A stretch of DNA of 64,000 bases, taken from the NCBI GenBank assembly GCA_034401795.1, contig CM067365.1, positions 12,599,656 to 12,663,655 on the forward strand, written 5' to 3'. Positions 34,687 through 58,148 of the stretch are shown piece after piece; position 1 is the first letter of the stretch, and every line of letters begins with the position of its first letter. The stretch comes from Chaetoderma sp. LZ-2023a (lineage: Eukaryota; Mollusca; Caudofoveata; Chaetodermatida; Chaetodermatidae). The notes under the pieces were generated by a model. It saw only the letters and a program-made list of their open reading frames with translations, did no database searches and was not told the origin of the DNA. Position numbers and translations under genes: made by a program.

Positions 34687-35230
34687 GGGCTGTACGTTAT
34701 TGTTCTAGAACAAAATAATGATCTGCCCGTCCGTCTGTACGTCCATCAGTTCAACCATCTTGCTGTTCCGTCCATCATCCATATGTCTGTCCGTCTATCC
34801 GTGCCTAGACCTTCCGTCCGTCCACCCGTCCGTGCCTGTATCCTTCCGCCAATATGTATATGTTTCTGCGCATGAGTAGGCTCTTGTGGGGATGTAATTT
34901 TTTGTTCTAGAACAAAGGAATTATCGAACAATGACGTACAGCCGTGCATGACATTTTTGAGGTTCACATTTTTGTTCGTTATCGTTTAAATAGAACAATG
35001 GCGTACAGAAAAAAGGCTCGAACAATGACGTACAGCTGTAGAATAAAAGTATACGTGCATATGTGCTTATAATAATATGGTATGAATAGGGTGTTTAGAA
35101 ATGCTAGACTGTTATTGACAATGGCGTACTGCGTTATAATATTGGCGAATGGTGTGTTGTGCATGAGCGTGGTTAGTGTTTTGAAAATTTTAACCACCTA
35201 TAAGTTTGGTATATTACGTTTTAAACTAGT

Positions 35231-35231
<1 letters not shown>
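34687..35231 (+). repeat. Left terminal inverted repeat
   Basis: Aligned by eye to the complement of 57655-58148: GTCC-rich outer part, TATGTATATG, GTTCTAGAACAAA, units of CAATGACGTACAG (34927, 35019; variants at 34995 and 35117), GCTGTAGAATAAAA, TAGAAATGCTAGA and GTGGTTAGTGTTTTGAAAAT. An extra outer unit (GGCTGTACGTTATTGTTC) lies at 34688. Not identical to the right copy, so not recently homogenised. Confidence 0.85.

Positions 35232-35233
<2 letters not shown>

Positions 35234-35285
<52 letters not shown>
35234..35285 (+). repeat. (CA)n microsatellite
   Basis: CGCG then CA units immediately inside the left TIR. Confidence 0.95.
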
Positions 35286-35286
<1 letters not shown>

Positions 35287-35299
35287 ACCCTGGTGGTTA

Positions 35300-37680
35300 G
35301 CTATCGAGGTATATGGGTTAAAATATAAGAGGTATAGTTGGTCGCATAATCGAGGCGGATGGATGAGGATAGGTGAGTAATGCTACCGTACTTGTTTACG
35401 AGTTAGTCAATGTTCGATACCGTTGTACACATATTTTGAAAATAATTTGTCTGCGATGGTAGTGAGCATCAACCTTCGATCAAATCGTTTCCAAAATATT
35501 TATCAGTATCCGTAGATCCCTTGAATGACTGCGATGTTTCATCAGTCATATGTTTATTATGTATGCCCCTCTAGGTATTGAATAGGTTTTTTTAACCCCG
35601 CTACGTGCCACTAATCGATAATGTCTATGGATAATAAATGAATATTTTGAAAATGATTTGACTGTAAGTTGTTGATAGCTTAACCGACATCGATTTATGA
35701 GCAAATTGTTTTTTAAATACTTAATAGGTGCTGCGATATAGGGTTTGCAATAACGTCAGTCAGTTAGATTTGGTGGCTGAGAAAATTTCTGCATTAAGCC
35801 TCTGAGGGCTATGAATCACGCGTTTAAGGACTGATAGTAGTCGTCACTCGCGACGAGATAGTGTTTATCTCTTTGTAGTTACGAATGCCGGCTTCTCTCG
35901 ACTTTTTTTGTACAATTTTGAATGGAATACATACTGCAATTTATACCTTTACATTTTTTCCCCCGCATTTTCGTTCGACCTCGTGCACAATTTGTTTCCC
36001 AGTTCTTAACCGAGTGGACATATGCACTAGTTCCCTCATCAATTACTGGCATATCTCATTTTGGATTTCGCGCCAGAGATTGTGCATACTTATGAAGGCG
36101 GGTTGGGTGGGGGTGTGGTGGGGGGTGGGGGGGGGGGGGGTGGGTGTGGAATTAATCGTCAATATATGTATACATAATTTCCCTTCGTGCACCGCATTGC
36201 TCATGTTAACATTAAACATGGATGCTTCAAACGCTTCAAGGTTAGAACTAATAATGGCGTTGGTATATTAAGGTATGAACCCACACATGACCATGACGAA
36301 AGGCGTATCATTATTCGCCTCACCGTGGAATACGTGCGAGAACACTACGTGCCTGTATCATCGGAATCTGGTTCTGAACCATCTTCCACCCATAAGGGTG
36401 TCCTAAGTTCTATCGCTTACACCACCCACACACATACACGCACCTCACGCACCAGCACACACACTCACATAGATTGTGCATTCCCTCGCATGCAGGCCCC
36501 GGCTCCTCTAAGCATACCCATGGATGTATTCCCTGTTCCCTTCATGTGTACGTCGTGTATGCATGCGTGTGTGCGTCTTTTATGCACCAATATATAAATG
36601 CGTGCATATGTTGTGTATGTACGAGACATAATTTTGTTTTTTGGTGGCCCTCTTAAAAAGAGGCCTATTTTTTATGGGTTTTTTTAAAATGTTTAATCTC
36701 TATTTTTCAATCAATATTTTCTGTCATTCTCACACCACATACACACGCAGCAATCATAAGGAAGTTGATACTTCGTATGCAGCCATTTGTTGTAATTATG
36801 TTCATCTGGTTCCACTAGATATTCTCTCCAGCGGTTCTGGATTTCGTGCATTACCTTTTTAAATGGCTGCCGAACTGGTACTTCGTTATATCTTTTCCAC
36901 TCCACACATCCCCATTTAATCGGTATAGAGCCGATTGTTCGCCAGCGATCACAGAATAAAGATTTGGTTTTTTTCCATTTTCACTTCACAAATTCAAAAA
37001 GATGAATGCCTTACTAGAAGCGTGCATTTCGCTTTTATAGCTAAAATATGAATGCTGTCAGTAAACCTAACTTTCCAATCTGAACACGCCCTTATTTCGG
37101 TTACGTGCTTTTGTGCTTTTTTCAACCGCTTACAATTAACATCAATGGATTTAAAAACAACTATGCGGACAATTGTATGTACAAAATTCGTTTCTTCACG
37201 CCATAAATGTTTGATTGGTATTTTTTTTTTTACAGAAACTGGAATTGATACATGCGACATTTAATACAAAGGATTCAATTATGGACGAGAATGCAGCATA
37301 CGGTTTCCCGTAGTCAGATATTAACACCCCGCATTTTGACATAGTCCATAATTCATGCGAATACGATTAATTAGTGTATTAATTTAGTTTCCTTCTGGAG
37401 TGCCGCGAGCGCCTAGCATGACATTGTTTGTTAGCCATTATCGGAATGCGTTCGCATTAAAATGTGTTCTTCCACCGGTGCGTATCAAAATAAAATGTTG
37501 ATAATTTGGGATGGTGACTGAGTGGTGATAGAGGCGGGTAAGGGAATGCGAAGAAATAATAACTTTTTAAAAAAAATAAATGTATTTATTGACACTTCCA
37601 AGATGATACATTTTTATGATAAATAAATACATATTAACGTTGTAATAATTATATTCTTAAAGAAAACCTATCACAAAAAT
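35300..37680. other. Left non-coding arm of the element
   Basis: No Polinton or module B gene is recognised. Diverged foldback cores of the MITE family lie at about 35433-35510 and 35640-35735, and a G-run at 36118-36143. Minus-strand frames at 36711-36905 (WREYLVEPDEHNYNKWLHTK) and 36994-37260 have fairly protein-like composition and might be remnants, but I cannot assign them. Confidence 0.4.
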
Positions 37681-37682
37681 AA

Positions 37683-38165
37683 TTAAGCATGATCTTTTTT
37701 TCTCTGTTTATTCATAATACTGCGCGTCAAATGTTTCACTATAGTGTCATTTTTCTCTCTGTATCTTAGTGCCCATAATATGTGCTTCATTTGTACACCT
37801 CTCGAATGATGATATAAGGAATAAACACAATACTATCTGCAGGTAGTCATCATTGCTGGTTGAACACGATCATTATTGAAATAATACACATGCGCATGGT
37901 GGCCATTTTGCACATTTGATATCATTCTTCCATCTGAAGGACGTCTTCCATAAGGGTAAAAGTATTCAGTATTTCCATTTCTAGTGTAATAAACCACCAC
38001 CCAATGTTGTCCGGATTTATTACTGGGCTGTGTGTTTATTATTAATGAAGCCGGATGACATTTAATATGCATGGGCACATTGTCAATTGGAAAAACTCCG
38101 AGAAAGTGTTCGCGCATTTTATTGTCACCAAATAACAGAGCCTCTATTTCAAATGTATTGAACAT
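37683..38165 (-). pseudogene. Polinton adenain-like cysteine protease (PRO), premature stop
   Basis: Virion-maturation protease of the Ulp1/adenain type. It starts MFNTFEIEALL, followed by FLGVFPIDNVP, which is typical of Polinton proteases. The active-site region GQHWVVVYY supplies the His. A YFYPYGRRPS segment holds the second site, and RVQPAMMTTC supplies Gln and the catalytic Cys (residue 109). Two residues later a TAG stops the frame. Reading on in the same frame gives the expected C-terminal part (YCVYSLYHHSRGVQ to KKDHA, TAA at 37683). Families normally have Cys-Gly here; this copy reads Cys-Arg. One nonsense change therefore separates the two halves. It lies directly downstream of the capsid gene, as is common in Polintons. 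Confidence 0.85.
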
Positions 38166-38169
38166 ATGT

Positions 38170-39447
38170 TTAATAATCTGTCAATACGTTACAGTCTGAT
38201 CCAATTTCTACCATATTATCAAATTCAGCATAGCAAATTACGTTGACTCTAGCTGAAAAAGCCTGAGCAGAATGGAAGACCACTCTTAATGAAGCAGTGC
38301 GCGTAGGGTAGCGATGCTCTGAATCAGCTAAATCTGGTGTAAAATCCCATGCAAACAGTGTGGTTCCATGTCTGTACTGTGATTTATTTATCAGGTAACC
38401 ACGGTCTTGGAATAATGCACCAGTACCAGTGAATAGTGAGAAATAAGTGTCTGAGAAAATGTTGTCGCTAAACGAAGGTCGTATTGGAACTGTTGTAACC
38501 TCTTCTCCATGTGTATACCATGTTGCATAGGTAGTGTTATTGTTATCAAACTTGAATGGCTTTTTTTGTACCACCCCATTATAGGCATCATTTGGTACAA
38601 AAGCGAATACTACTCTAGTAGGAAGCTGTCCAATAACTATATTATCTCTATCGATGCTCATCATGCCACTAGGTACTGTAAAAGTCTTACACACTACCTG
38701 CGAATAGGATATTTCATGCTCGTCTGTCTCAGAGTAACCACGTGTGCCACTAGTAGATCTGGCGATGGAGTAACTTTGCGTACAAATAAGTTAGCTGACA
38801 AGATTTTCAGTGTAGGCCTCATTCCTACTGCAGCCATAATGGCGAACACATCTTTACTCTCTATGGAACTGATCAGGAATCGATCCTGCAGAAACATATC
38901 ACTGTGCATGCGTAACATTAAATGTTGTGTTTTACTTTGTGCCATCATTTTTCTGCGAGCTTGAAATCCTAAATTAGTATCGCCGATATTATCAAATTCG
39001 CCTACATCATCTATTGCCCATTCGCCGAGTTGTGGATGCGAGGATGAGGCATCGCTCCCATAATTAAGTAGTGTTTCAAGGTATGAGTGGTGAGCGTAAT
39101 TTTTGTTCGAGTCAGTGACTCATTTTCCATTAAAAAAACCATCCACTTGTGAGAACATCGTATACATAATATTATTCGCAGGAACTATCAGCTCATCCTC
39201 CTCGAGTGGCTTCTCATCTTTGATCTATCTTTACTAGCTTAACTTTAATTGAAAGATAAGACTGTGTAAGCTGTACATATCTTTCAACAGACTCACTGAC
39301 GTAAAACTTGATCGGACCACTATCTGATAAACTCGATATGGGCTGAAACTGTTTCCATTTTGCAGACTCCAATTTTGGCACTATGGGGTATGTCTGAAAC
39401 CTGTCTAATTCACTCTTTGAGCACTCGCATATTTGACTAAGCTCCAT
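38170..39447 (-). pseudogene. Polinton major capsid protein (double jelly roll), frameshifted
   Basis: About 425 codons from MELSQICECS to IGSDCNVLTDY. The N-terminal part has ELDRF and WKQFQPISSLSDSGPIKF; the middle has NNIMYTMFSQVDGFFNGK, YLETLLNYG and LGFQARRKMM. The C-terminal part has RVVFAFVPNDAYNG, a TLFAWDFTPDL segment and ICYAEFDNMVEI. These are hallmark stretches of the Polinton/adintovirus hexon-like capsid. Breaks seen: a one-base frameshift near 39228, an in-frame TGA at 39120-39122 and a one-base frameshift near 38695. All three frames rejoin without loss of homology. The penton and PX genes lie upstream and the protease downstream. Confidence 0.88.
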
Positions 39448-39449: not shown

Positions 39450-39863
39450 ATTTTGTGTGTTTCCTCTGACATCTATTGTGACCCTTCCTCTTTGGTATCG
39501 CATGCATGGACTGAGCATTACCCGTTTTCTTCCTCTTTTTATGTTTAGGTTGTGGTGGTCTTAGACCACTATGCACTGCTGTTATCGCGTCCAGTATCAT
39601 AGCCCTGACAACACTGTGCACTCTCGATTTGTTTTAACATTTTTCCCAGCCATTACATCCTCAGCTAGGCCGATTCCCGCATTAAGAACTTGTTTACCTA
39701 CAGATTTAGCTACATTTTTTGTGATAGGTATTACTGAATGTAATAGCCCACCTAAGATATTACTGAGTCCATGCTCTGATTGGTATCGCATGCCTACAAA
39801 AACTGGAATATGACCATGGCCCGCTTGACCCGCTTAGTAATACTCCAGCATTGGAATGCTCAT
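39450..39863 (-). pseudogene. PX-like small virion protein, damaged
   Basis: Short basic/hydrophobic protein found beside the capsid gene in Polintons and adintoviruses. It starts MSIPMLEYY; an in-frame TAA (39834-39836) follows. Then come GHIPVFVGMRYQSEHGLSN, ILGGLLHSVIPITK and KSVGKQVLNAGIGLAEDVMA-GKNVK. After a frameshift near 39630 a basic tail (PKHKKRKK) follows. Because the normal stop has been lost, the tail frame runs straight into the capsid start. The usual role is given as a virion core or membrane-active component; that is family knowledge and not visible here. Confidence 0.65.
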
Positions 39864-40245: not shown

Positions 40246-41016
40246 TTTTGCCAGTCGTAGGCCCACCCTCACGATTCGAATGAAATGAGTTTTTAAAATT
40301 CTCTATGTCCCATATGTATCTTTCCTTCTTCGAATCTGATTAAATTTGCTAGTTCACCACCTAATCGTATAGCGTAATTATCTTTAACTGAGAGAGAAAT
40401 GAAATTTGCGCCACGCAAGTAAAAATTGAAATACATTTTTTTGTGTTTAAATTGTGTCATGCTCTCTATTTGCCCATTTAGATAGTCTGCCATATTTTTC
40501 ACTGCATAGTACACTTTTGGCACACGGATAAATGGAGCTTCTGATTGCATATAATAATATTCGCTTCTACGTGTACGTTTTTTTCTCCGATTGTCTGTTT
40601 GATCATTTTGCGCATGTTTTCCACAATCATCCACTTGATCATTTTGTGCATGTTTTCCCTGATCAGAAGGATGAGGATTACCGACACCATATTTTAAAAC
40701 TAGCGCATATGGCATTGTTGTTGCCTTTTCTATTTCTGTTGCCCTATCGACATCTTTGCAAATTTTTCTTCTGGTTCGTCATCGCATCACTTCATTTTCT
40801 TTATCTTCTTCTTAGTAAATGCAAATATTTGAACAACACTTTGTAAATAGTAAGCCAACTCCTCGGATATAGTGCACTCAAGAGGCCCACTTCTCAGTCG
40901 CCATTTAATGTTAATAGCGTTTGCAGACGAGTTCTACACTCTGACATCTTATTGTCTGGAAAGAACTGCATACTACTATTGCTTGGAAGGGTTATGCAAA
41001 ACTGATCCGCGTTCAT
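39884..41016 (-). pseudogene. Polinton penton / minor capsid protein (PY), broken by a TA tract
   Basis: N-terminus MNADQFCITLPSNSSM, matching the FYVTLPSNSS start typical of the family, then FFPDNKMSE and LTLNGD-x-EVGL. The x is TGA (40894-40896) exactly where the family has the Trp of GDWEVGL. The middle part is open at 40293-40715, with ADYLNGQIESM and [13 protein letters not shown]. The C-terminal part (39884-40140) has [33 protein letters not shown] and GANVPFKDG, ending HFRRR. Between them sits an (TA)n tract (40148-40236). It ends 20 bases before the PX start. The single jelly roll is expected from the family, not shown here. Confidence 0.8.
40148..40236. repeat. (TA)n microsatellite inside the penton gene
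   Basis: About 88 bp of TA with one ACACACAC interruption, followed by a T run. It separates two halves of a recognisable gene. Confidence 0.95.
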
Positions 41017-41265: not shown

Positions 41266-42342
41266 TTAATGTTGTATAATACTGAGTTCAGCAACCCATG
41301 TGTTAAACTTAGCCGGGTAACCGAGCCACTTTACCAGATACTTGCATGGTCCCTTCTTATTTTTTCTACTTTTAAGTATTCTTTCCACCGCATACTCTTT
41401 ATCATTTTCTTCTATCACATGCTGTATCTCATCATGATAAAAAGTACCAATGATCAGATCGCCTGCATAGTCTTCCAATTTATATAAGTATGGAATTTGT
41501 CTTTAAGTATCTCACGTACCATAAACAATTCCCTACTCCATTTCCCACGATATGCTTTTTCAAATGGCATTTTCGCTTGAGATAGTCTAACATGGTCGCC
41601 TTGAGTACGGAATGTTTTTAGATTTGATGTGTTTCTTCGTCTTCGTACCATATATATTGTTCCATGTGATTAACTCAGTACTATGGTTGACTTCAGAAGG
41701 AGTCATGCACGTACTGGTATGTGTGGTGTTATTGTACACGGCGACTAGGTAACACATCAATATACTGTCAAGTATTCTTATGTATCATGTATCTATATAT
41801 TCGCCCATTCAGCGTGCGTTGAAAATGCTCCACCATTGCAGCTTTCGTTTCATTTTGAGAAGTGTAGAAATGTGTTCCATTATCTTTCAAATAGTTCTTC
41901 ATTACATGGTTTATGAACTCACCCCTTTTGTCTGTTTTAATAGCATGTGGACAGCACTCAGTACGCTCCAGTATTGTTTCTAACACTTTCCTGACAGCAG
42001 AGGACGTTTTACTAAAAAAGACTTTCTACCCATGCATATTTTGAAAGGGCATCATCTATGCATCGCACATATAACACATTGTTGTTCTCTTTCGCCAGCA
42101 TTCCCATCGAGCATAGATCTGCCTGCCATGGTTCATCGACAGCTGAAACTCTTATTTTTCGCCTGTCAAACGTTGTTCTCCATGGTCTGTGTAGCCTATA
42201 CACTTCTTGGCATTTTAGCCATTTGCCAATATAGGCATGTGGTATTTTGCCCTATATATGCATTATATAGGTTTTCTTTCCCACCAAAAGATGCGAAATG
42301 TTTCGGGTTGAAATATATTTTTGCCAATTTAGCATCATTCAT
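41266..42342 (-). pseudogene. Polinton retroviral-type integrase with chromodomain (INT), frameshifted
   Basis: Starts MNDAKLAKIYFNPKHFAS, and its ATG overlaps the previous stop as ATGA. Then SFGGKENLY, WLKCQEVYRLHRPWR and the DDE core. First Asp is in DEPWQADLCSM (about 42130), followed by IDDALSKYAW. Second Asp is in IKTDKRGEFIN (about 41930). Glu is in NETKAAMVEHFQRTLNGR (about 41850). Then GDHVRLSQAKMPFEKAY-RGKWSRELF and a C-terminal chromodomain (EYAVERILKSR, YLVKWLGYPAKFNTW). Frameshifts near 42240, 42000 and 41465 and short gaps between open pieces make it non-functional as read. It would catalyse insertion of the linear element. Confidence 0.88.
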
Positions 42343-42806
42343 GACTTATTTAAATACACCCACACCGGAGTTGAATGCCCCTTTTTCTTCCATCTGCCCA
42401 CTGGAGAACTCTTTCTACATATTCTGTTGCTCACGAGCGTAGCCGTGTACCCACTGGCACTATCATCCTTTTCTGTGACATTATATATCTGTCTCATCGG
42501 TTTCTCTTGGCCTACACATCTGTGTGGTATGTTTAGGTCATGTAGCAGATTAAGAAACTTTCCCTCCGCTTGATTGTGCATGCCGACCATAAGAGGCTTT
42601 CTCCCATGCACTACTACGTTTGTAAACAGGTCAAATACATTCCTTTCTTGGGTAAAACGTACATCTATTGTCACTTCGCCCAGCTCGTTAATGTTAAAAC
42701 ATTCAGGAACCATATGTAAAATATCAATTACTCTATTGGCGTTTGTCTTGTATGTTTTTGGTATTCCCCTCAATGTAAATTTCAAGTATTTGTGTGGGCA
42801 GCGCAC
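42339..42806 (-). CDS. Conserved-looking Polinton protein of unknown function
   Basis: Open for 155 codons with no break. Segments include KYLKFTLRGIPKTYKTNANR, VIDILHMVPECFNINELGEV, NVFDLFTNVVVHGRKPLMVG and LLHDLNIPHRCVGQEK. I do not recognise the family. No ATG opens it: the frame is closed just upstream by TAA, and the first codon given is GTG, so the true N-terminus may be lost or altered. Its stop overlaps the integrase start (ATGA), which supports both being real. It lies between PolB and INT. Confidence 0.5.
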   Translation of the reverse strand: MRCPHKYLKFTLRGIPKTYKTNANRVIDILHMVPECFNINELGEVTIDVRFTQERNVFDLFTNVVVHGRKPLMVGMHNQAEGKFLNLLHDLNIPHRCVGQEKPMRQIYNVTEKDDSASGYTATLVSNRICRKSSPVGRWKKKGHSTPVWVYLNKS

Positions 42807-43009
42807 CGTAGCTAGTTATGCATTGCAGAGGTGGTGGCTGACGTACTGACGGATAAAGGACAATGTTACTATTTATATTTATACTATTCTAGAGTAACCA
42901 TATGCTACTCAACGATAAATCACCCAGTTTCAAAATGTGGTTTTGAAGACGGGTCTGAAAATCTTACTGCTATTGCCTGAAAGAATTATAAATTGAGACG
43001 TGCTTGTGA

Positions 43010-46000
43010 TCTTAGATGGGTAGCTTGGTAGTACGCTATTACTATCCACAATTTCACCATTGTTTATAATTCTAGATACCTACTCTGTTCTTGAATGGTC
43101 GGCTCACCTTCACGGGTACTAAATACCACAGAATCCATATCATGATAGGTTACGTGGTGACGGAGTAGGGACAAGACTTAATACAGTTTTGCTCGCCCAT
43201 ACACTGTCACGAAAGATGCAAGAATACAATTGCTATTTAATGGTTGATTGAATAGGATGTCAACAGAAGACTATCGTTCATGAATGTAATGGTTCCTACA
43301 GTTTTACTTGTATCATTCAGGGAACCTTTACATGTTGATATCATGCTATTCTTGGTATGATCACGAAGAGAAAATCGTCCCCACGAAATATTCAAACAGG
43401 ATTTAGCAACATAGCGCAAACCCGGGTTATTCAATATTTGTACAGGGTGGAGCTGTATTCCTTCATGTTTATATATATATATATAGTCAGCCATGTAATT
43501 CACCTTTTCACTCTCGCTACTGACACAATCAGGATAACCGCTACTTTCCTGTTTAATTTAAAAAAAACAGTTGATGTATTCTGAAAATAACCAATTGTCA
43601 ACATGCTGCTCATATTGCGATGATGCATGATACTGCCAAACTTCATACATTGTTTTAATGAATTAAGTGTTGCGTATAGCTAGATGTATCTCTGGAATAG
43701 TTTATGTTCCACATATACTGCACAGTTCTTCTGTACATTCGCATACAGAAGATTGTTAATTTTTTGCGCATTCTGCGCATAGTACATACATGAAGCATAC
43801 ATTAATTTTAGCAGAAAAGTAAATCACGAGGTGGAAGGATGTTGCATTTAATAAGACCAAAGAAGGAATGCACCATCTTATCACTCAAGTCATTGCCTCT
43901 TAGTACCGTATATGGCCCCTTCTGGAAAACAGCATTGTTTCATTACTGAAGGATACATGGAAACACAGTCTAAATATTCGAGCGTGGTATGCTCATCCGC
44001 TTCCATAAATAAATGAATTGCAGACGTGCATCCACCTTCATGTGGGGATATTGGGTGTGCTATGTCCAATTTGGTGATAAAATAATTGTGTGCAGAGGAA
44101 TCAGTGACTTGTTTCTTAAAGACGCATTCCGACATAATCCTTACCATATATCCATGTGATTCAAATAAAAATATGTGACATTTAAGCGCAAAATGTGCAT
44201 CTTCATATGTCTGATCACCATATGGTGTATATGTTGTATCACGCTTATCACCGCAACAATCAGACTCATGCCCATGACATTTGCATCCTAAAAACTCGAA
44301 AATAGTATTTACAGCTGCATCAATTCTATTTACATAATATCCGCGTATGTCTGTTCTCCCTTGTTTAGCACATGTTCGATTTGGTGAGCCTCGCATTGAC
44401 TGACCCATTCCATCTATTCTATGCCCCACACGCTATAAGCGCATTTTGCTCTTTGTGAGAAATCAGGTATAGGTTGCATGCTCTCACGTTGAAGCCATAA
44501 AGCATGATAGGCCGCATTACACACACCCACTAGTGTTATCCCTGTCACAAATGCATTTTGTCCATCTGTCGTTCAGAAATTAACGTCTTAAATCTAGACA
44601 TGGCTAAACGTAAGACGGTTACATCACCACTACAATATTCATTGAGCTTTGTTTCAACATCGTGGTGCTCGTGTCTAGGTACCTGTTCATTGTACCAGCG
44701 ATCAAATTCAATAAATTCATTCGCATTCATATTTTGGGGACAAAATATCTCCCTCTCGGGAAAGGGTATTACCTTACCCCAATGTTTAGGCATATTGAGC
44801 TGATGGGGAAATGCCCCCTTACAAACAGGAAGATTAAAACCATTGCCCACCGTATGTAAAGAAAGAGGAAAAATGTTAATGGACTCGATTAAACATATAG
44901 TGCCTACGTCAAATGAGAGAACTGCACGACCACGCATAATAATATCTGTAGGTTTAAGATGAAGGTTAGCAGGTTTGCAAATGCAGTGAAGGAGTACAAA
45001 AGAAGCATATGCGCGAACGTTGTGTGCGATCACCAAGTAGTCAGAGAAAACATATTTTCTATTGAATTTTTAACGGCATGCATAGCCTTAACACGTGTCA
45101 ACCATTTAATGAACTGATCCACTGTGTCTAACCCATGAAAGCGAACATATCCATAATTCGTGCCTTGATGACATGTGGTGCAATCGTCTTCTAAGCGGTT
45201 ACTTGAAGCACGCATCACAACATACGTTGGCTATTACGAGATTAACTTTATACTCTGAAATAATATTAGTATTCCTACTATCGATAGGTGATAAATATGT
45301 TTCTGTGTCATAAAAAATGTATTTTTAAAAATCTTCGTTAATACAAATGTCTGCATCCTTATGCATAGGGTGTGCGTGGGATAATGACATAATAGGTTCT
45401 GCAATTACTTTATGATAACACATATGAGTTTCAGTAATGACAAACTTTGCTTTACATGCATGACATTTTGTCATACCGCAAATGTGTTCATCACCATCTT
45501 TATGAATGCGAATGAAACATTAGGGACACGCCCTTCAGACATGGATTTCGCAGGTCCCATTAGAGAGGTGGTTCACCTTACATTGACGGTTCTAAAACAT
45601 ATGATGACAATCATTACACATTATTTTATGTGAAGCACCTGTAGAAGTACAAGATCCTTATCAGAATAAGGTATCAGACAACTACGAAACCATGCTGCAC
45701 ATGCGTGATCAATAGCGTATGATGTGTTACACTACATGCAGTGATTACATACCATAAGAAATGCAGTGGTAGACGTAATCAAGGATATATGATTATCACG
45801 TCCTGAATGCATAAGATTAATACATGGTAAACTCAGGAAAGTGCTACCGAATAGGCATTCATGTGTTGTCTTTGAGTAGACTTGAATAGAAAATTGATTG
45901 TGAAAATGTTCCTGAAATGTATACCAATCAGTACTATTAATTTCACGTTCAGGAATACAGCAAGTTGCATGATACTCACGCACCATATGCGTCAAACATT

Positions 46001-47083: not shown

Positions 47084-47128
<45 letters not shown>

Positions 47129-47504: not shown

Positions 47505-47535
47505 ACATACACCCAGGCCCTACACCCATCTGCCC

Positions 47536-47583
47536 AAGGTTTAAGATCTTGATATAGACTTTATCAAACATGCATTACAATAC
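47536..47583 (+). promoter_or_regulatory. TATA-type promoter motif, copy 1
   Basis: AAGGTTTAAGATCTTGATAT then AGAC, ahead of the zinc-ribbon ORF. The same block recurs at 48187 and 48239. Inferred promoter; no experiment seen. Confidence 0.4.
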
Positions 47584-47748
47584 ATGCAAATGGCTTATGG
47601 AGAATATTGTGTGACACACAATGCTCAGATTCAGAAGCCTGCTGTTGAGAGGAAGCCATGCAGAGGATGTGGGGCAGGTATTTATACAGACTGTGAACTA
47701 TGTAAAGCATGCGGGGGGTGGGGGTGCGTAAACATTCCAACAGAATGA
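47584..47748 (+). CDS. 54-residue zinc-ribbon miniprotein
   Basis: MQMAYGEYCVTHNAQIQK followed by KPCRGCGAGIYTDC, ELCKACG and WGCVNIPTE, stop TGA. Seven Cys fall in two CxxC-type pairs plus extras within 23 residues, which looks like a small zinc-binding fold. An alternative start two codons later is possible. It lies immediately after the repeated TTTAAG/ATATAGAC promoter block and before the 77-bp tandem array. I treat it as the first plus-strand gene of module B. Function unknown; small Zn-ribbon proteins are common regulators in dsDNA viruses. Confidence 0.5.
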   Translation: MQMAYGEYCVTHNAQIQKPAVERKPCRGCGAGIYTDCELCKACGGWGCVNIPTE

Positions 47749-47818
47749 ACTACAAGAAGGTCTCTGCCAGGAGAAAGTTCAGTTTTGTTATGGAAGAACC
47801 TAAACGTGTCATGCCACG

Positions 47819-48186
47819 CATTTAGAGACAGGCCTCCACAGGGATATACACCATCCACAGGTACTGATCGCCACACATAATAGGGTCTGAACGCCCATTT
47901 AGAGACAGACATCCACAGGGATATACACCACCCACAGGTACTGATCACCACACCTAATAGGGTCTGAACACCCATTTCGAGACCGGCATCCACAGGGATA
48001 TACACCACCTGCAGGTACTGATCACCACACATAATAGGGTCTGAACGCCCATTTAGAGGCAGACATCCACAGGAATATATACCACCCACAGGTACTGATC
48101 GCCCCACATAATAGGGTCTGAACGCCCATTTAGAAACAGGCATCCACAGGGATATACACCACCCACAGGTACTGATCGCCACTCAT
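47819..48186. repeat. 77-bp tandem repeat, about 4.8 copies
   Basis: Units begin at 47819, 47896, 47973, 48050 and 48127, each CATTTAGAGACAGGCATCC-like and ending GGTCTGAACGCC; the period is exactly 77. Since 77 is not a multiple of 3, the 166-codon minus-strand frame across it is not a conserved repeat protein. The minus-strand start of each unit (GGCGATCAGTACCTG) follows the promoter at 48187, so the array may have grown from the beginning of a lost leftward gene. Confidence 0.9.
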
Positions 48187-48270
48187 AAGGTTTAAGATCT
48201 AATATATAGACCTTGCATCAGGGTTACTGTAAGTCAAAAAGGTTTAAGATCCAAATATAGACCGTGCATC
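48187..48270. promoter_or_regulatory. Duplicated TATA-type promoter block
   Basis: Two 52-bp units (48187 and 48239), each AAGGTTTAAGATC, then ATATAGACC and TGCATCA. The second abuts the ATG of the SAP-like gene (48271). On the minus strand it reads GGTCTATAT...GATCTTAAACC, resembling the motif before other module B genes, so it may fire both ways. Confidence 0.45.
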
Positions 48271-48599
48271 ATGGTTACTGTAACCCAGCTTCAAGTGATG
48301 GCAAAGGAATTCGGTCTTAGAGGGTATTCTAAGGCCCACAAAGCCGACCTGCTCCAGATGATTGCACACGCCAATGCCAAGGAGTGGCGAAAGTAACTCC
48401 CCACACTTGCCGAGGAGTTGTTAAAGCGACTCTCCCCAGCAAAACAGGCAGGAGGTTTCCGGCGCTCCCCTCTCAGGATCCATGGAACCCTCACAAGAAA
48501 ACACAGCTGCTCCATGAGAGTCGTCAGGTGTATGAGGAGGAAGCTGTAGCAACTCAGATGGCAAGCCATCCACACGAACGCCTACCACTTCTACACTGA
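48271..48599 (+). pseudogene. SAP-like DNA-binding protein, frameshifted
   Basis: Starts MVTVTQLQVMAKEFGLRGYS then KAHKADLLQMIA: the helix-G-Y-S-K-x-x-K-A-D/E-L pattern of SAP motifs, which bind AT-rich DNA. The frame stops at TAA after ~40 codons. A second frame (48384-48599, with PSQDPWNPHKKTQ and ESRQVYEEEAVATQM) probably carries the rest after a one-base shift. Small SAP-like proteins preceding this kind of PolB occur, as I recall, in related cnidarian and other invertebrate elements. Confidence 0.5.
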
Positions 48600-48735
48600 A
48601 TCGGAACACGATTAATGAGGGGACCGAGATCTGAAACCCGGGACCCAGATCTGAAACCCAAGCCCGGAGTATGCAGTGAGAAGGTCAACAGATTCTTAAC
48701 GAGCGTCTCAGTGAGAGGGAGACCGAGGAGAGAGG

Positions 48736-51700
48736 ATGGCGAACAGTACGCTAAACATTACAGGTCGGATCATGGAGAAGCTGCGGACTGTTCAGAACAC
48801 CTTCCACCTTTGCTATATCCACACAGATCGAATCCGCCACATCGAGGATGATAGGGTAATGCTCTTCCACAATAATGCTCCAGGAAGTCCCTGGATGAAT
48901 ACACTATGAGAGATCCAGACTTGGGTGGAGGGCAGAGAGCAAGCCCGCCTTGAGCCAGACAATATCAATTAGCCCACTACCGCGTGGGCCTTCATTAGAT
49001 GAATCACGGTGACGTAAAGGTTGTCATCGACCGCCAGCCTCTGCTAGGGACAGGCCCCCTCCCAGTCTGGCTCCGATGTAGGAAGGGAATGGTGGCACTC
49101 GATACCTACAAAGATAACGTGTGCCTCGAGATGTCTAGCAGTCCAGTAGGGGGCAAGAGATGATAGAAATACAGCTCCTGCATGAGAGCTTGGTAAACAG
49201 TTCTACGGCCTGCACAGGCCTGTGGTTGACGTACCAAAGACGTCCCCAGACCAGCTGGACATGGTAGAGTTATTTGCGAAGACAGGGATTCGTGTTTATG
49301 AGCCCACTGAAGAGGGTAGCTGGCATCTGACCAGGAAACCTGCACACTATCCGACCATCATGGCAATAGGAGTGTACGATCACCACGCCTTCTTTATTAA
49401 GGACATCTCCAAGCTGGCCCCGCCCTTCAGCTGTGGGCACTGTCAACAGCAGTTCACCCAAGCATGTAGTCTCCATCGCCATGCTGACCACCGTACAGGG
49501 GGAAAACGGCCATCGATTGCCCTGGGCAGAAGGTAGTAGCACCGCCGTCCCCATACAAGAAGGCCTTCTATCCATACCAACCGGGCAGTTCCGCGGCTAC
49601 TCGTTGGATTGAATATGAGCCGAGAAACCATGGAATTCATATAGACCACGCAAAGTGTGGTCACGGTGGTTAGCGTTGGATCGAGAGGGGCTCCCGTAGA
49701 TGGTTATGATCCGACAACTGACACAGTATACCAGTTTCATGGCTGTCACTGGCATGGATGTTCACAACACCAGCGAGGTGAGGATGCTGATCGAAGATAC
49801 CACAAGACGGTTGCACGAGACGAGAAACTGAGAGCATCTGGACGCACACTTGTGGTACAGTGGGAGCGCTGTATAAAACGCTAGCGTCCACAACCATGTG
49901 CAGACAGTACCATACCCACACTTTGTTGTCTATGACTTTGAAGCCCTTCTAGATGGGATCAAGACCCACCCTAAAGATAGTCTCACGATCGAGAGTGCCC
50001 ACATACCAATCTCGGTGTCAGTCGGCTGCTCCTTAGACAGTAGCGTGCGCTCGCCAACTCACCTCTGCAATGCTAACCCCAAAGTGTTGATCTCAGAGTT
50101 CATGCAGGAGATCCAACTACGAGCCTCCATGATCCATGCAAGGGTTCGGTCACAGTATCTACCCGCAGACTTGGACAAGTTACCAAAACAACAGCAGCGG
50201 CTTATCAATGAGTGGTGTGACCAGGTGCCTGTGCCCGGGTTCAATTCTGGGCGGTACGACCTGAACCTCATCAAGAAGTACTTCGTGGATGAACTTACTA
50301 CTTCGTCCACAGGAACGGTGAAAGTCGCCAAGAAGGCTAGCCAGACAATGTTCCTCATTACGCCTGAACTGAGGTTTCTCGATGTAATCAAATACCTCGG
50401 CCTAGGGGTTTCTTATGAGAAATGGATCAAAGCCTACGGTTGCACGCAACAGAAGAGCTGGTTACCTTATGAATGGTTCGACTCACCTGAGAAGCTTGAC
50501 TATCCTGGACTACCCGATTATCATGCATGGTGGTCCAAGCTCTAAGGGGGTGACCGTCTTGAGTTGTCAGAGTGGAAAGCTTGTAAGCAGAACTTCAGAG
50601 ATCTGGGATGAAGACGTTTGCTGACTGGTTGCGATATTACAGCGACTTGGATGTTAGCCCATTCATTGAAGCCTTAGAGAAGATGTGAGAATTCTACACA
50701 GAACGAGGTATAGACATTCTGAAGGACGTGGTGTCACTTCCTGGTGTGTCGCTTCAGTACTTACTTCGTGGTACTGCTGAACATGAGCCGGATATTGGCC
50801 TTTACTCTCCAGGCAAGGAAGCTTACGGGATGTTAAAGGGGGCTGTTGTTGGGGGTCCGAGCATTGTGTCCATGTGGTATCACGAGGCTGGGGTTATCCG
50901 AATTCGCCAGGTAAGCGAGTATGTCAACGTCTCCTTGGTTATGACGCAAATGCTCTGTATTTGTCAACCATGGCCTAAGCAATGCGTTGTCGTAAAGAAA
51001 CTGTATGACGGTGGGGTGGGTGTGTAAGCAGTGATATTGAACCCTTTAAGCAGGATCTGCTAGCGGATTTTTGGTTTGGGTTTGCTTAGGTCGACATTGA
51101 AGTGCCTAAAGTGTTATGGCCAAAGTTCGAGGAGATGTCTCCCATCTTCCATAATCGGGAGATCCCAGACGAGGCTATACCTTCGGAGATGCTTGCATAC
51201 CTTGATAAAACAGGTCGAAAAAAGTCCACAACTATCAAGCTCGCTGGTGCACTCCCTGGTAAGAAGAGGGTATTGTATGCACCAACTCTCAAGTGGTACC
51301 TTGCCCACGGGTTAGAGATTATTGCTATCTATCACACTACAGACTACACCTCACAGAACCCTTTTGAATGGTTTGTAGACTCTGTTACTGAGGCACGTCG
51401 TACCGGGGATGTTGACGAAAGAAAGCCTTGTTGGCTGATCTCTTCAAACTCCTCGGCGAAGGTGCATATGGGAAGCTGATCGAGGCATTAGAACGTTATA
51501 CCAACACAAGCTTCACTAAGGATGCACGAGCAGTAGACAGAGCCTTGCATAGCGCATGGTTCGTGGAGCTACAGGAGATCGGGGATTCCTATGAATTGCA
51601 GAGACATAAGGCTAAAATCACCATTTGTCGCCCCTTTCAGGTGGGTATATCAGTATACGAGCTGGTGAAGCTGCGAATGCTGGAGTTCTACTATGACTTC

Positions 51701-52261
51701 CTCGACTGCTATGTAGCTCGTGACAGCTTCGAGTACCTGCAAACGGACACCAATCTGCCTATATCGCCATAGCAGGCTCCAACCTCGATGAGGTGATACG
51801 CCCAGAGATACGAATGGAGTATGAGGCCTGCAAACGGGACTGGTTGGCATGGGACAAATGGTATAACTGTACTCGAGTTCGAAGGCATTCGTGGTATTGC
51901 TCTCTGCTCCAAGTGCTACTATGTGGAGAATACAGACCACTTGAACAGCAGAAACTTGCAAGTGAAATGCTCGACCAAGGGAATGTCTAAATGGTAGAAT
52001 GGCATCTCCTGGCAGAGGTTCTACAGCGCCCTCCATGGTGTAGTAGACAGAGCCACCAACCGAGGCCTACGCATGCGCAACCAGGGTATGGTGACATATG
52101 TGCAGGAAAAACTCGGACTCTCCGCTTACCACGATAAGAGATATGTGCTACCAGATGGTGTCCACACCGAGCCCATCGAGCATCATGTTAGCACCCTATG
52201 GGTGGTAGCTGTGTGTCTTCAGGGACTAGCTGAAGCTCTTCAGCAACAAATGGTCGCCTAG
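48736..52261 (+). pseudogene. Second, distinct family-B DNA polymerase (PolB-B), many breaks
   Basis: Starts MANSTLNITGRI. N-terminal part: VVIDRQPLLGTGPLPVWLR, LTRKPAHYPTIM, HHAFFIKDISKLAP and a CGHCQQQFTQACSLHRHAD finger. Then PVDGYDPTTDTVYQFHGCHW-HGC (49694-49757). Exo I FVVYDFEALLD (49921); Exo II VPGFNSGRYDLNLIKKYF (50235); RFLDVIKYLGLGVSYEKW; VVGGPSIVSMW. Motif A GYDANALYLSTM (50938). LLGEGAYGKLIEALER (51441) where families have GNSAYGKLIE. RPFQVGISVYELVKLRMLEF-YYDFLDCY, then motif C LQTDTN for QxDTDS. VIRPEIRMEYEACKRDWLAW and KLGLSAYHDKRYVLPDGVHT near the end. It differs throughout from the module A PolB. About 6 or more frameshifts and stops, e.g. TAG at 49672, TAA at 50543, TGA at 50686 and TAG at 51993. 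Confidence 0.85.
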
Positions 52262-52640
52262 GCACTCCGTGCTGGCATGCCAGGTAGTACGGTGTAGGCC
52301 GCCCCTCCGCCTCCACATACCTGTCAAGTATGTGAACATCTATCGACCAGTTAGGATCTGTTGCACACCGTCGACCCCCTTCCAGCTCACCACGCTCATA
52401 CAGGTACCGAACCAGAGCATCAGGTGGTAGGTACTCCTCTCCCTTGTTCACTCCTCTAGAGCTGTGACCAGCAGAGTGTCTGATAGCCTCTACCGGCTTC
52501 TTCCCGATTAGCCTCGTAACCTCGGCATTGGATCTCTCCACCACAGCAGGCAGACCTCTCGCCCATACTCTAGAATGTTCACTCGGCGCGGCCATTTCCT
52601 GGGCACCAGCGTCTAGTCTCTCCTGGATCCTCACTGAACA
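52188..52640 (-). pseudogene. Integrase C-terminal tail of module B, truncated
   Basis: Convergent with PolB-B and overlapping its end. Reads ERLDAGAQEMAAPSEHSRVW, then ARGLPAVVERSNAEVTRLIG, KKPVEAI, YLPPDALVRYLYERGELEGG, RRCATDPNWSIDV and VPEDTQLPPIGC. This is the part after the DDE core in a retroviral-type integrase family common in invertebrate transposons (the ExTRLxGKKPxxAI and GELEGGRRRATDPxWS signatures). The catalytic core and N-terminus are absent: homology begins at the codons equivalent to ..AERL.. and the next gene ends 60 bp further on. It has no chromodomain, so it is not the module A integrase. Confidence 0.7.
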
Positions 52641-52703
52641 GTAGTTTATCGACCAACCCTCGGAAGCTAAGGGAATTGACCAGGTCGTACAGGGATGTCA
52701 TCC

Positions 52704-53164
52704 TTATACAGTACGGCTTAAATGTTCGGCGGCCCATATGGCCGCGAGCGCTATGGCAACGTATGCTAGCCAAGGGCTTGCGACTCCGAAGAACGTACCT
52801 ACTCCTGAGGCGATGGCTGGTATGGCTTCAGAAATCTTCTCCACCCCATGGAGAGCATTGTTGGGGATCTTGTGGACCGCCTTGCCAGCCTTCGATGTGA
52901 ACAGAGCGACCAGAGCCCCAACTGCTGCCAGCGGACCGATAGAACTTTGTATGTAAGTGCGATAGATTCCTTTCACTCCGTGCACTAGCTTGACGGATTC
53001 AGGCTCTACATCATCATACTCACCCACGGTCTCCACTACATCGTAGTTGTCTGCATCCTCCTCCTCATCATAGTCCTCCTCATGGTCCTCGACATCTATA
53101 TCCTCGACCGGATCTTCATAAGCCTCTGGCTCATACACCGCTCTGGGGATCCGCCGCTGGGGGA
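52704..53164 (-). CDS. Acidic N-terminus, hydrophobic C-terminus membrane-type protein
   Basis: Open for 144 codons. Residues ~1-45 are highly acidic (DPVEDIDVEDHEEDYDEEED, then NYDVVETVGEYDD). A short middle follows (KLVHGVKGIYRTYIQ), then PLAAVGALVALFTSK, IPAIASGVGTFFGVASPWLA and YVAIALAAIWAAEHL, giving two or three membrane segments. The frame continues upstream as AVPQRRIPRAVYEPE to an ATA codon just after a TAA, where an ATG would be expected. I suspect the original start was lost by a single change. Divergent from the coiled-coil gene, with ~36 bp between. Function unknown; a virion membrane or core protein is a guess. Confidence 0.5.
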
Positions 53165-53199
53165 CAGCTATTTAGTGGCTTTAAACTGTAGTCTATAGC
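53165..53199. promoter_or_regulatory. Divergent promoter between membrane-type and coiled-coil genes
   Basis: GGCTTTAAACTGTAGTCTAT then AGC and the ATG of the rightward gene. On the minus strand it reads CTATAGACTACAGTTTAAAG. Same TATA plus TTTAAA ingredients as the other module B promoters. Confidence 0.4.
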
Positions 53200-53490
53200 A
53201 TGGCATCCACAATCTTGAATGCAGGCGTGTTTGCATTAGCGAACTGGGGACTCAGCTTCGCCAACAAGAAGGCGGTAGAGGTCGAGCATGAGCGTCATAA
53301 ACAGGCGATGAAGAAGCTGTCTAAGGTGAAGTTTGAGTACAGCAAAGCCCTCGAGCAGATACGCCAGCGGGAGGCACGCCGACGCGAACTCCGAGCTCAG
53401 GCCAACCAGAGCCTCAAAGAGGCGGATGAGAGTCTCGATGAGTACTACGAGGATGTACAGATATCTGAGCCAATGCTCGACTATGAATAA
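53200..53490 (+). CDS. Coiled-coil protein of module B
   Basis: 96 codons, intact, starting MASTILNAGVFALANWGLSF, a hydrophobic N-terminus. Then ~55 residues rich in Glu/Lys/Arg with heptad-like spacing (KQAMKKLSKVKFEYSKALEQ, IRQREARRRELRAQANQS), ending acidic (DESLDEYYEDVQISEP). A protein with the same MASTILNA start and ..EYY.. end recurs, as I recall, beside this class of PolB in other invertebrate genomes. That points to a conserved but unnamed component. Role unknown; a structural or fibre-like part would fit. Confidence 0.6.
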   Translation: MASTILNAGVFALANWGLSFANKKAVEVEHERHKQAMKKLSKVKFEYSKALEQIRQREARRRELRAQANQSLKEADESLDEYYEDVQISEPMLDYE

Positions 53491-54553: not shown

Positions 54554-55368
54554 ATGTTTGGTAAAGTTCTCCAGCAGATTGTCTATAGGCAGCTGAACAT
54601 GTCGGCACGACAGCCACGGTGTGCCCTGTCCAACTGTGACAGGGTCTGAGGACTGCTTCGTGACATCAGCATTATCCACGAGCGAGATAAGGTCACAGCT
54701 CTGTCTGATGCGGAGATACTGGCCGCCATAGAGGAAGGCGCGCCAGTTCGTAGTACAAAAGAACTCCTGACTCGGATACTCTATCTGAAGTCTGACAGCA
54801 CCCAGGGCAGGACACTCGTCCTACCCATGGCCCAAACCAACAGTCCTATTATTCTAGCTCTACTAACGGTCGGGATGTGGCCTCCATATTTAGCCTCCAT
54901 AGCCATGAAGAGCGAGATATGCTTGATAGTCTCCAGTCTGGAGCAAATAACTACTTCAGGGAGGAGGTCAGTGCCGCTGTAGCGGCCAGCCATGACACCG
55001 GTCATGTAGAAGGTACTCAGGAGGGGCTCACTCTTGGCCGCAAGGAGGCTGTTGAGTACATCTTCAACGAAGAAGGGCGCAGCAGATTGATCAGTGATCT
55101 GGCAGCATTTCTGAAATTCCCAGATAACTACCAGGACTACCTGATCAAATCCGCTCGCAAGTCAGATGCTCATCGCGCATCATCAAAGTGGATCTTACGT
55201 GATAAGTTCCAGAAGAAGAGAGCCCTAGACTCTGACCCTCAGTGGGTAGAGTTTAAACGACAGGCTTCTGACGAAGTTCCTCAAGCTTCTGACGAAGTTC
55301 CTCAAGCATCTGACGAAGTAGCAGAGACCGCAGACGAAGTAGCGGAGACCGCACAGCCTTCTTTCTGA
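54554..55368 (+). pseudogene. Unknown module B protein with C-terminal ASDEV repeats, damaged
   Basis: Starts MFGKVLQQIVYRQLNMSARQ; an in-frame TGA falls at codon 32. Then GLLRDISIIHERDKVTALSD, AEILAAIEEGAPVRSTKELL and YLKSDSTQGRTLVLPMAQ. A frameshift near 54835 leads into DVASIFSLHSHEERDMLDSL, REEVSAAVAASHDTGHVEGT, LTLGRKEAVEYIFNEEGRSR, FLKFPDNYQDYLIKSARKSD and WILRDKFQKKRALDSD. The tail repeats QASDEVP twice and then AETADEV twice. Mostly helical and charged. No known family; perhaps a scaffold or DNA-binding virion protein. Alternative start at 54599. Confidence 0.5.
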
Positions 55369-55404: not shown

Positions 55405-55842
55405 TCAGCGATGATGCGTAGAGCAGGTTAGTTTCCTGGCTGGATTCAGCTTGTAGGTGAAGGTCTGCGCCTTTTCCAGAGATGGCTTGAAGTGTGACAG
55501 ATCACCTGTCTCCTTGTTGCTGAAGATGAAGCGGTACAGCTCAGCTGCCCTCTGTACACCTGCGATAAATTCCCCTTTAGTCTCCTTGAGGGTTAGGCTG
55601 TCGTATATGGTCTCTCGCAGGGCACGTCCACACTTGGAGCTGAAGTATAGCAACCGGGCATTGTGGCGGATGTCTGGTGAGATCTTGCAGGTGTACTTCT
55701 GAAAGAGGATGAAGACAGTTATCTGTGTGTGCCGGATGCGCTTGGTGATGCTGCTGATGTAGGTGACTGTCTTCTGGTCCATGGCAGCCGCGAAGATAGC
55801 GTAGAGGGCCTGTGTCATCACCCACAGTGTCTAGTACATCCA
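55405..55842 (-). pseudogene. Possible packaging-ATPase C-terminal part
   Basis: Frame reads MTQALYAIFAAAMDQKTVTY, ISSITKRIRHTQITVFILFQ, KYTCKISPDIRHNARLLYFS, KCGRALRETIYDSLTLKETK and GEFIAGVQRAAELYRFIF. The stretch (R)H-x-Q-I-T-V-F-I-L-F-Q-K-Y followed by I-R-x-N resembles the sensor region of A32/FtsK-HerA packaging ATPases (RHxxISVIxxxQ, then a Gln-containing strand and RxxxN). Walker A and a clear Walker B are not visible, so only the C-terminal half is here or the resemblance is chance. Confidence 0.35.
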
Positions 55843-56608: not shown

Positions 56609-56628
56609 CTCTCACTATTCAGAGGGGG

Positions 56629-57030
56629 TTAAACGTAGGCGGCGATGATCTCAGCCATTGCACTCGTTGCTAGCCCTAGAACCGCGGCCTCCATTAGTGT
56701 AACACGTTCACCCATGATCGTGGCGGCAACAGTGTAGGGGGCACCACTGAGGGCGATCTTTGGGATGGGGTGAGTTATTCCGAGACAGTGCCCGTCCACC
56801 CCACTCACCACTGTAGCGAGGACATCCGCTGTGGTGGCAGGAAGAACCTCATTTCCCCCTGTCATCTTCACCACGGCCACGTTCGCCGCCACGTTACTGG
56901 CGGCATGGACTGCCAGAGGTTTTGCTTTGGTCAGTAACGTCTGTGTCTTGGTTCGGAGCAGGTTCTCCACCTTCTGAAGACTCGGCTGGCTCTCGGGCAG
57001 TTGCTTCATGATCTGCACCGTTGACGTCAT
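56629..57030 (-). CDS. Hydrophobic C-terminus unknown protein
   Basis: 133 codons from ATG (MTSTVQIMKQLPESQPSLQK). The N-terminal third is polar and helical. Then LAVHAASNVAANVAVVKM and an Ala/Val/Gly-rich region (PATTADVLATVVSG, IALSGAPYTVAATIMGE, LMEAAVLGLATSAMAEIIAA), which could form two membrane helices. Promoter-like CATTGTATACTCAGTGCTTA then AACA precedes the ATG. Function unknown. A different minus frame (56894-57148) overlaps and I consider it a shadow. Confidence 0.45.
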   Translation of the reverse strand: MTSTVQIMKQLPESQPSLQKVENLLRTKTQTLLTKAKPLAVHAASNVAANVAVVKMTGGNEVLPATTADVLATVVSGVDGHCLGITHPIPKIALSGAPYTVAATIMGERVTLMEAAVLGLATSAMAEIIAAYV

Positions 57031-57171
57031 TGTTTAAGCACTGAGTATACAATGCGGTTACACATCTGCGTCCCTTGTTATGAGCGCTAATAAGATCTTC
57101 CCAGCCTGCATTTGCCGGGTGGCCGGGTTGGTACTCAGGAATATTCATCTCTCTATTGCGACATCTTAAAC
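57031..57171. promoter_or_regulatory. Divergent intergenic region of module B
   Basis: 141 bp between divergent genes. Leftward: GTATAC then CTTAAACA next to ATG. Rightward: TCTCTATTGCGACATCTTAA then ACATG. Both use a TATA-like box about 20-25 bp before the start and the same CTTAAAC at the start. Confidence 0.4.
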
Positions 57172-57594
57172 ATGTCCGAGCTCACGCTCTGCGAGAAGTA
57201 CTATGATCTCTTCTGGAGGGAGTTGAAGGACTACAAGAAGAAGACACTAGATGAACTCGCTCAGCTCTCCAGTGCTGAGCTCGCAGAGGAGCTGACAGCT
57301 GTGAAGCTCTATCTAGGATTTGGCAAGGGACAGATCTGCTTTATTGAATACCTTATCATGGGCGGGAGTATCGTCGAGCAGCTCCTGCGAGCTAAAGGTT
57401 TCTACAAGGATCGGGAGTATTTGTCATATGTGTTCCAGCAGTTGCAGACCGCCATGGCCTCACCGGACTCAGAGCTGAACAATGCGCTGCCGAACCCTCC
57501 AGCCCTTGGATGTGCATGTTGGCAGCGAGTATACGGGCTGTATGGCATGGCAAGCTGGGTCAGTGTCTCACCGTGGTCCCCACTGCTACTGTAG
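57172..57594 (+). CDS. Unknown module B protein (140 codons)
   Basis: I choose the ATG at 57172 (MSELTLCEKYYDLFWRELKD) because it directly follows the CTTAAAC promoter element; the frame stays open further upstream. Continues KKKTLDELAQLSSAELAEEL, TAVKLYLGFGKGQICFIEYL and YLSYVFQQLQTAMASPDSE. Mostly helical with a Leu-rich centre; no family recognised. Last gene before the right TIR. Confidence 0.5.
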   Translation: MSELTLCEKYYDLFWRELKDYKKKTLDELAQLSSAELAEELTAVKLYLGFGKGQICFIEYLIMGGSIVEQLLRAKGFYKDREYLSYVFQQLQTAMASPDSELNNALPNPPALGCACWQRVYGLYGMASWVSVSPWSPLLL

Positions 57595-57654
57595 AGAGTC
57601 AGGATAGTCTTATAGCTGATGTGGGTGTGTGGGGGTTGGGGGTGGGGGAGGGCA

Positions 57655-58148
57655 CGCAGCTAGTTTGAAACGTAAACTACTACACTTTTAGTGGTTACAA
57701 TTTTCAAAACACTAACCACGCCCACACATAACATGCCATTCGTCAACATTCTGACGCTGTACGCCATTGTCAGTAACATTCTAGCATTTCTAAAGACCCT
57801 ATTCGTTCTATAGTATTATAAGCACATATATAACATAATTTTATTCTACAGCTGTACGTCATTGTTTGAGCTTTTTTTCTGTACGTAATTGTTCTATTTA
57901 AACAATAACGTACAGAATTTAGATTCTCAAAAAATTCAAAGACGGCTATACGTCATTGTTCAAGAACTAAAGAATCGGCAATTCTTTTGTTCCAGAACAA
58001 TAACGTACAGCCCCACACGAGACTACGCATACGCATAGACATATACATATGGGCGGAAGGATGGACAGACATATGGATGATGGACGGACGGACGGACGGA
58101 TGAACAGCAAGATGGATGAAATGATGGACATACGGACTGACGGGCAGA
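57655..58148 (-). repeat. Right terminal inverted repeat
   Basis: Complement of the left TIR: TTTTCAAAACACTAACCACG, TCTAGCATTTCTA, TTTTATTCTACAGCTGTACG, then repeated (T)GTACGTxATTGTT units at 57757, 57853, 57880, 57902, 57947 and 58000 in alternating orientation, GTTCCAGAACAA, CATATACATATG and GGAC tetranucleotide units at 58081-58100. Confidence 0.85.

Follow-up and report, generated by a model that had tools for sequence, protein, structure and literature searches.

Relation to described elements

Intact vertebrate Mavericks are 12.7-24.6 kb long, end in terminal repeats of 46-1447 bp and carry accessory genes that flank the core modules (PMC8097293), and a C-terminal chromodomain of the integrase has been called distinctive of adintoviruses (PMC11071296). 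Here, a locus of the caudofoveate mollusc Chaetoderma sp. LZ-2023a is analyzed, which lies between 34.7 and 58.15 kb of a 64,000-nucleotide stretch of contig CM067365.1 (the window). With a total of ~23.4 kb, both its size and the length of its repeat arms are inside the ranges of the intact vertebrate elements. It resembles animal elements of the Maverick/Polinton/adintovirus kind (Polintoviricetes) in its family B DNA polymerase (PolB), its capsid protein, an rve integrase that ends in a chromodomain, the long terminal inverted repeats, the total size and, more weakly, an adenain-like protease. In contrast to these elements, two PolB lineages lie inside one repeat pair, no packaging ATPase was recognised in the left gene set (module A) and only a truncated, putative one in the right set (module B), the genes are broken, and there is no proven target duplication.

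The position of module B corresponds to that of the extra genes which flank the core modules of vertebrate Mavericks (PMC8097293). However, module B spans 10 kb and would itself be what is left of another Maverick-type element. Adintoviruses in which alpha and beta hexon and PolB occur in mixed pairings (PMC11071296) are similar in that lineages of one kind exchanged genes; there, the genes of one genome are paired differently, whereas here one replication set is placed next to another. In the titles and abstract openings inspected, from literature that included few subscription papers, no unit was described as a nested, tandem, composite or chimeric Polinton or as one with two polymerases or integrases. 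If both sets moved together, Mavericks would take in whole modules, not just single genes, and such an uptake would bear on the origin of related viruses through module exchange. If the locus was formed by nesting plus decay, it would be an ordinary fossil locus.

Two polymerase lineages in one locus

Very probably, two lineages are united in this locus. The initial annotation of the window had described ~0.5 kb inverted repeats enclosing two unrelated PolB gene sets. The repeats were recovered, as were one PolB region on the minus strand at 45.5-43.2 kb and another on the plus strand at 48.2-52.3 kb, but the term unrelated is not appropriate, because both polymerases are of the PF03175 type, though of distinct lineages. 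The proposed head-to-tail arrangement had to be abandoned as well: the recognised genes of module A are on the minus strand and the PolB of module B is on the plus strand, pointing apart at 47.5 kb.

Judged by its predicted proteins, module A is a broken Maverick/adintovirus set with a capsid protein, a weak protease, a chromodomain integrase and a PolB (PolB-A). Pieces of the broken PolB-A gene matched PF03175 with E values of 1.4e-10 (above the cut-off), 1.6e-4 and 0.0025, as expected for a protein-primed family B polymerase, and a PHROGs scan gave weak matches only, including a DNA polymerase family with E=0.075 for a PolB-A piece. The integrase combines an rve domain (PF00665, E=3.1e-4, below the cut-off) with a C-terminal chromodomain (PF00385, E=1.9e-12). 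For the capsid protein, three relatives (P0121-P0123) were found among 43 candidates, with 36-39% identity, or 34-38% within the alignment; the contig that encodes P0122 is 14 kb long. Structure models of the window piece and of P0122 were poor, with a mean pLDDT (predicted local distance difference test) of 45 and 37, respectively, which is too low for fold identification. A Foldseek comparison of these low-confidence models with BFVD, in which matches lean on sequence, ranked a bracovirus protein first for both; the second rank was taken by a plant virus movement protein in the case of the window piece and by an adintovirus capsid in that of P0122. A PDB profile search with the capsid yielded only a chance match (E=0.31). 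The full Polinton set that had been assigned to module A was not confirmed: no packaging ATPase was recognised among the scanned pieces, where a decayed gene may be present, and the genes are broken by frame changes and stops. The gene set of module B is incomplete as well. A Walker A expression had two matches between 34.6 and 58.2 kb, neither of them within a recognised ATPase gene.

Module B, for which the previously proposed size of ~10 kb was confirmed, very probably stems from a second lineage distinct from that of module A, with a PolB (PolB-B) that has many relatives and a different domain order. A search of public data with a stop-free, 222-residue stretch of PolB-B brought up 247 candidates, of which 154 qualified as relatives at E<=0.01; 120 of the relatives were listed, and 18 sequences form alignment A1. 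PF03175 was matched by five of these 18 members, at least two of them above the cut-off, and the assignment of PolB-B to this polymerase type is made via the relatives, the scanned pieces of the window itself being without a match. A Rho_N domain is present at 48.2 kb (E=8.1e-6). The Vsr-like region precedes the exonuclease in PolB-B, whereas a similar region in PolB-A follows it; the respective family TIGR00632 was matched by the relative P0031 with E=0.0069, below the cut-off. An expression for an intact motif C had no match in PolB-A or PolB-B, and both genes are broken in their N-terminal regions, where adintovirus PolB has an OTU-like domain.

The putative packaging-ATPase piece of module B is stop-free, and its 126 residues are 91% identical (11 of 126 differ) to P0124, a 220-residue protein encoded on a 2.7 kb JGI contig. 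P0124 contains the Walker A half that the piece lacks and that was not found in the window; its Walker A and B motifs were seen by eye, and its AAA and Pox_A32 matches were weak and below the cut-off. A capsid gene was not recognised in the scanned pieces of module B, where a divergent or broken one may be present. The earlier proposal of an integrase tail in module B was kept as probable: the frame at 52697-52191 (minus strand) is presumed to be such a tail by sequence similarity, while Pfam, NCBIfam and PDB were silent or returned chance matches. One PolB and one integrase are expected per element, and two PolB lineages and presumably a second integrase are found here; therefore, the locus was not classed as one ordinary Maverick. 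Relatives in IMG/VR were not confirmed for the PolB-B piece, the PolB-A piece, A1, A2, P0124 or P0122, and neither an Rfam family nor a tRNA was detected in the window.

The repeat arms and the ends of the locus

The inverted repeat pair (34722-35270 versus 58148-57620, ~0.55 kb) has 75% identity with gaps (E=7e-112), and thus the locus as a whole has the terminal inverted repeats by which Maverick/Polinton/adintovirus elements are recognised. The alignment of the arm cores has 84% identity over 358 ungapped columns, equivalent to a Kimura two-parameter distance of 0.18, and its score of 456 compares with <=61 for the best of 30 shuffles. A 28-base block close to the inner edge is identical in both arms except for one position. 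A 16-base iteron, GAACAATGACGTACAG, has 12 matches with <=3 mismatches in the window, 10 of which are in or beside the two arms, at a chance expectation of 0.63 per window. The arm cores exceed both modules in CpG ratio, which is probably due to the CG in the iteron. Apart from the two arms, no further long copy of the arm core is present in the window, and the arm sequence had 0 matches in IMG/VR. The outer arm minisatellite is partly simple sequence and is 66-69% like a GTCC array at 61.9-62.0 kb.

Just outside the left arm lies an additional copy of the arm sequence, whose first letters, AGTAGT, are an end motif of vertebrate Mavericks (PMC8097293); this copy is preceded by CATACG (34667-34672). 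On the right side, ACTACG ends at 58027 and is followed by CATACG (58028-58033). If the ends lay at this CATACG pair, the element would measure 23,355 bp and be flanked by a duplication of 6 bp. However, these sites may instead be inner copies, because CATACG occurs three times in 57991-58240 and the arm homology runs outward past 58033, in the form of the minisatellite that on the left falls inside the supposed element. A target duplication at the outer repeat edges, which had been suggested as a check, was represented by matches of 6-7 bases only, roughly the number estimated for chance. One candidate, ACAGCGA, was rejected; on the left it is part of a host repeat that continues without a break.

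The junction of the two modules

The start of the rightmost module A frame is at 47504. Three short AAGGTTTAAGATC repeats shared with module B follow, the leftmost with its first base at 47536 and the others at 48187 and 48239, and a tandem array with a unit of 77 bp and 4.8 copies occupies 47819-48188. The two strongest steps in guanine plus cytosine (GC) content of the window, calculated with 5 kb on either side, are at 47630 (from 0.368 to 0.505) and at 57660 (from 0.526 to 0.426). The best single change point between 40.7 and 57.6 kb, with one AT microsatellite omitted, is 47636, with a gain of 152 and with positions 47581-47713 within 2 log-likelihood units. The second strongest step, 57660, coincides with the inner edge of the right arm core, and therefore module B is a GC island that looks inserted and that ends at the right arm. 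Neither module has detectable ends of its own at the inner edges: the only inverted match was one of 20 bases with E=4.1 at the edges of module B, and no exact inverted match reached 10 bases for module A or 9 bases for module B. For the 6-bp target duplication that was to be looked for at the edges of module A, no convincing candidate was found; the longest direct repeats at the inner edges are of low complexity (GGGGGTGGGGG, CACACATACA).

Decay of the genes

In PolB-B, four frame changes and six supported stops were found over the 1.8 kb tested. The stops were taken from 15 rows, and each of the six was seen with 7-83 relatives; left out were one stop (24 relatives) beyond a frame change and eight seen with 1-4 relatives, one of them in the capsid gene. 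Module A has nine frame changes in 4.77 kb over three genes, four of them in the 2.28 kb of PolB. In its integrase and PolB they were derived from stop-free pieces assigned by coordinate, not by alignment with homologues, which makes the comparison of decay a rough one. Six stops per 600 codons fits ~0.09 substitutions per site, which is the value per arm obtained from the distance of 0.18. The polymerases and the arms are thus about equally decayed, and an equal age is plausible for the polymerases; it is not borne out by every piece of the locus.

Origin of the locus

The initial annotation had offered a chimeric or composite element on the one hand and nested elements on the other hand, and this turned out to be the right pair of alternatives. 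Four explanations were considered, here in the order of decreasing probability: a lineage-A provirus with a captured B block, nesting with erased ends, ownership of the arms by module B, and an assembly join. The first is our tentative preference. It builds on what is seen directly, namely the arms, two PolB lineages, a composition island, broken genes and no detectable inner ends. According to this explanation the locus would be a dead provirus of the Maverick/Polinton/adintovirus kind, of lineage A and bounded by its own AT-rich terminal repeats, in which GC-rich DNA of another Maverick-type lineage, 10 kb long and lacking terminal repeats of its own, is placed between the PolB end of module A and the right terminal repeat. 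The block would most likely have been captured by recombination between two element genomes before integration, and the composite would then have integrated, presumably using the integrase of module A, and decayed as one piece. The parts of this explanation are not equally firm. It is somewhat more probable that the arms belong with module A than with module B, and the chances are even that module B was captured without its ends rather than brought in by transposition. The stronger claim, a 23.4 kb composite Maverick with two replication and integration sets of different lineages and an iteron repeat pair that moved as a unit, is unlikely. Several observations weigh against the captured block. 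The composition argument for arms owned by module A is moderate, because the terminal region of any element can be AT-rich and the minisatellites of the arms have 50-54% GC. Within a single genome, a second polymerase and a second integrase would be superfluous. A clean target duplication of the locus was not found, and the ~1.4 kb between the left arm and module A contain degenerate host-repeat copies and no recognised viral gene. The exact boundary of the modules is uncertain, because the change point falls in a zinc-ribbon-like frame (47545-47745) with a third-position GC content of 0.34, closer to that of module A. Lastly, the ATPase piece of module B looks younger than the arms (simulated P=0.002 at 0.09 substitutions per site), and the capsid gene of module A is free of stops supported by two or more relatives (P=0.064 at arm age).

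That these two pieces look younger than the arms speaks for independent insertions of A and B, nested or adjacent, whose inner terminal repeats and target duplications were later deleted, the outer pair being derived from whichever came first. Dead elements do lose pieces, as the truncated ATPase and the presumably truncated integrase of module B exemplify, and 2,166 vertebrate Maverick elements are without discernible terminal inverted repeats (PMC8097293). However, this would require the loss of both inner ends at a place where the start codons of two divergent frames are ~80 bp apart, and the loss of the other end of module B no more than ~65 bp from the right arm. Neither an inner terminal repeat nor a convincing duplication was found at the A/B edges. 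This course of events is somewhat less likely than the capture of a block. The initial annotation had favored yet another order, with the repeats belonging to module B and the Polinton inserted between the left arm of B and the remainder of B. Its observation that the right repeat begins ~60 bp after the last module B gene is correct (the last frame ends at 57591, ~65 bp before the core edge at 57656), and the frames of module B continue from PolB-B rightward to the arm, but a gap of this size would be just as likely with B lying between A and A's own right end. The arm cores, with 35.6% and 35.2% GC, are like module A (37%) and unlike module B (52%), the host flanks having 39-43%. In addition, the composition step at 57660 separates module B from the right arm and marks it as the island, and terminal repeats of module A were not found around 35.3-36.7 and 47.5 kb, which makes this order improbable. 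Even less probable is an assembly join, i.e., a 47.5 kb junction that is absent from the chromosome. The scaffold is not clean, with a 3208-base inverted duplication of 100% identity beside two 500-N runs in the same window, and the 77 bp tandem array begins ~280 bp to the right of the junction. Yet the window is free of N from 21293 onward, and the junction is not in a long repeat. The locus is a real two-lineage locus as assembled.

Features of the locus and its surroundings

The features of the arms and of both modules are summarized in the following table.

Table 1. Features of the two-polymerase locus, with coordinates in the 64-kb window.
Feature	Position	Strand	Remarks
Extra copy of arm sequence, ~46 bp	34673-34719	+	begins AGTAGT
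Iteron GAACAATGACGTACAG, 4 copies	34690-35035		in or beside left arm, <=3 mismatches
Left arm	34722-35270	+	GTCC-type minisatellite 34722-34872 (outer), core 34873-35232, CA tract at inner edge
Module A	~36.7-47.5 kb	-	broken Maverick/adintovirus remains, 37.3% GC
Protease piece of A, adenain-like, weak	37836-38180	-	PF00770 E=0.0042, under curated cut-off
Major capsid protein of A, two frames	38173-39146	-	relatives P0121-P0123
Probable PW-like virion protein of A	39600-39833	-	presumed from a motif; coding signal; Pfam gave nothing useful
Probable minor capsid protein of A	40296-40778	-	presumed; coding signal; weak Pfam match below cut-off
Integrase of A, six pieces	41269-42815	-	rve core piece and C-terminal chromodomain
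PolB of A, five pieces	43240-45519	-	PF03175 on three pieces
Two A frames sharing a short motif	46726-47519	-	rightmost A genes, function not assigned
Module B	~47.6-57.6 kb		~10 kb, 51.7% GC; probable second Maverick-type lineage
Left edge of B	47536-48251	+	77 bp tandem array, short AAGGTTTAAGATC repeats, zinc-ribbon-like frame
PolB of B	48196-52258	+	Rho_N, zinc finger (weak), Vsr-like GCHWHGC region, exonuclease, palm
Probable integrase C-terminal tail of B	52191-52697	-	presumed from sequence similarity
Small frame of B	52707-53171	-	acidic/hydrophobic protein, by eye
Small frame of B	53185-53487	+	coiled coil, by eye
Frame of B, function not assigned	54796-55365	+	open frame, coding signal scan
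Putative packaging-ATPase piece of B	55408-55785	-	corresponds to residues 95-220 of P0124
Last open frame of B	57094-57591	+	ends ~65 bp before inner edge of right arm core
Right arm	57620-58148	-	core 57656-58030, minisatellite 58031-58148
Iteron GAACAATGACGTACAG, 6 copies	57757-58010		within right arm

The two copies of the inverted duplication are located at 4317-7524 and 21310-24517, each adjoining a run of 500 N (3812-4311 and 20793-21292). The duplication is probably a scaffolding artefact, and with an exact 3.2 kb inverted duplication beside N runs the scaffold deserves caution. A host repeat that has a palindromic core (GTTGAATATTTTGAAACTAATTTGACTGGG...) is dispersed in many copies over 4.3-34.6 kb, and the degenerate copies between the left arm and module A (35431-35727) are old. 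Just outside the right arm, a direct repeat of 0.9 kb with 76% identity is found at 58247-59141 and 62145-63043.

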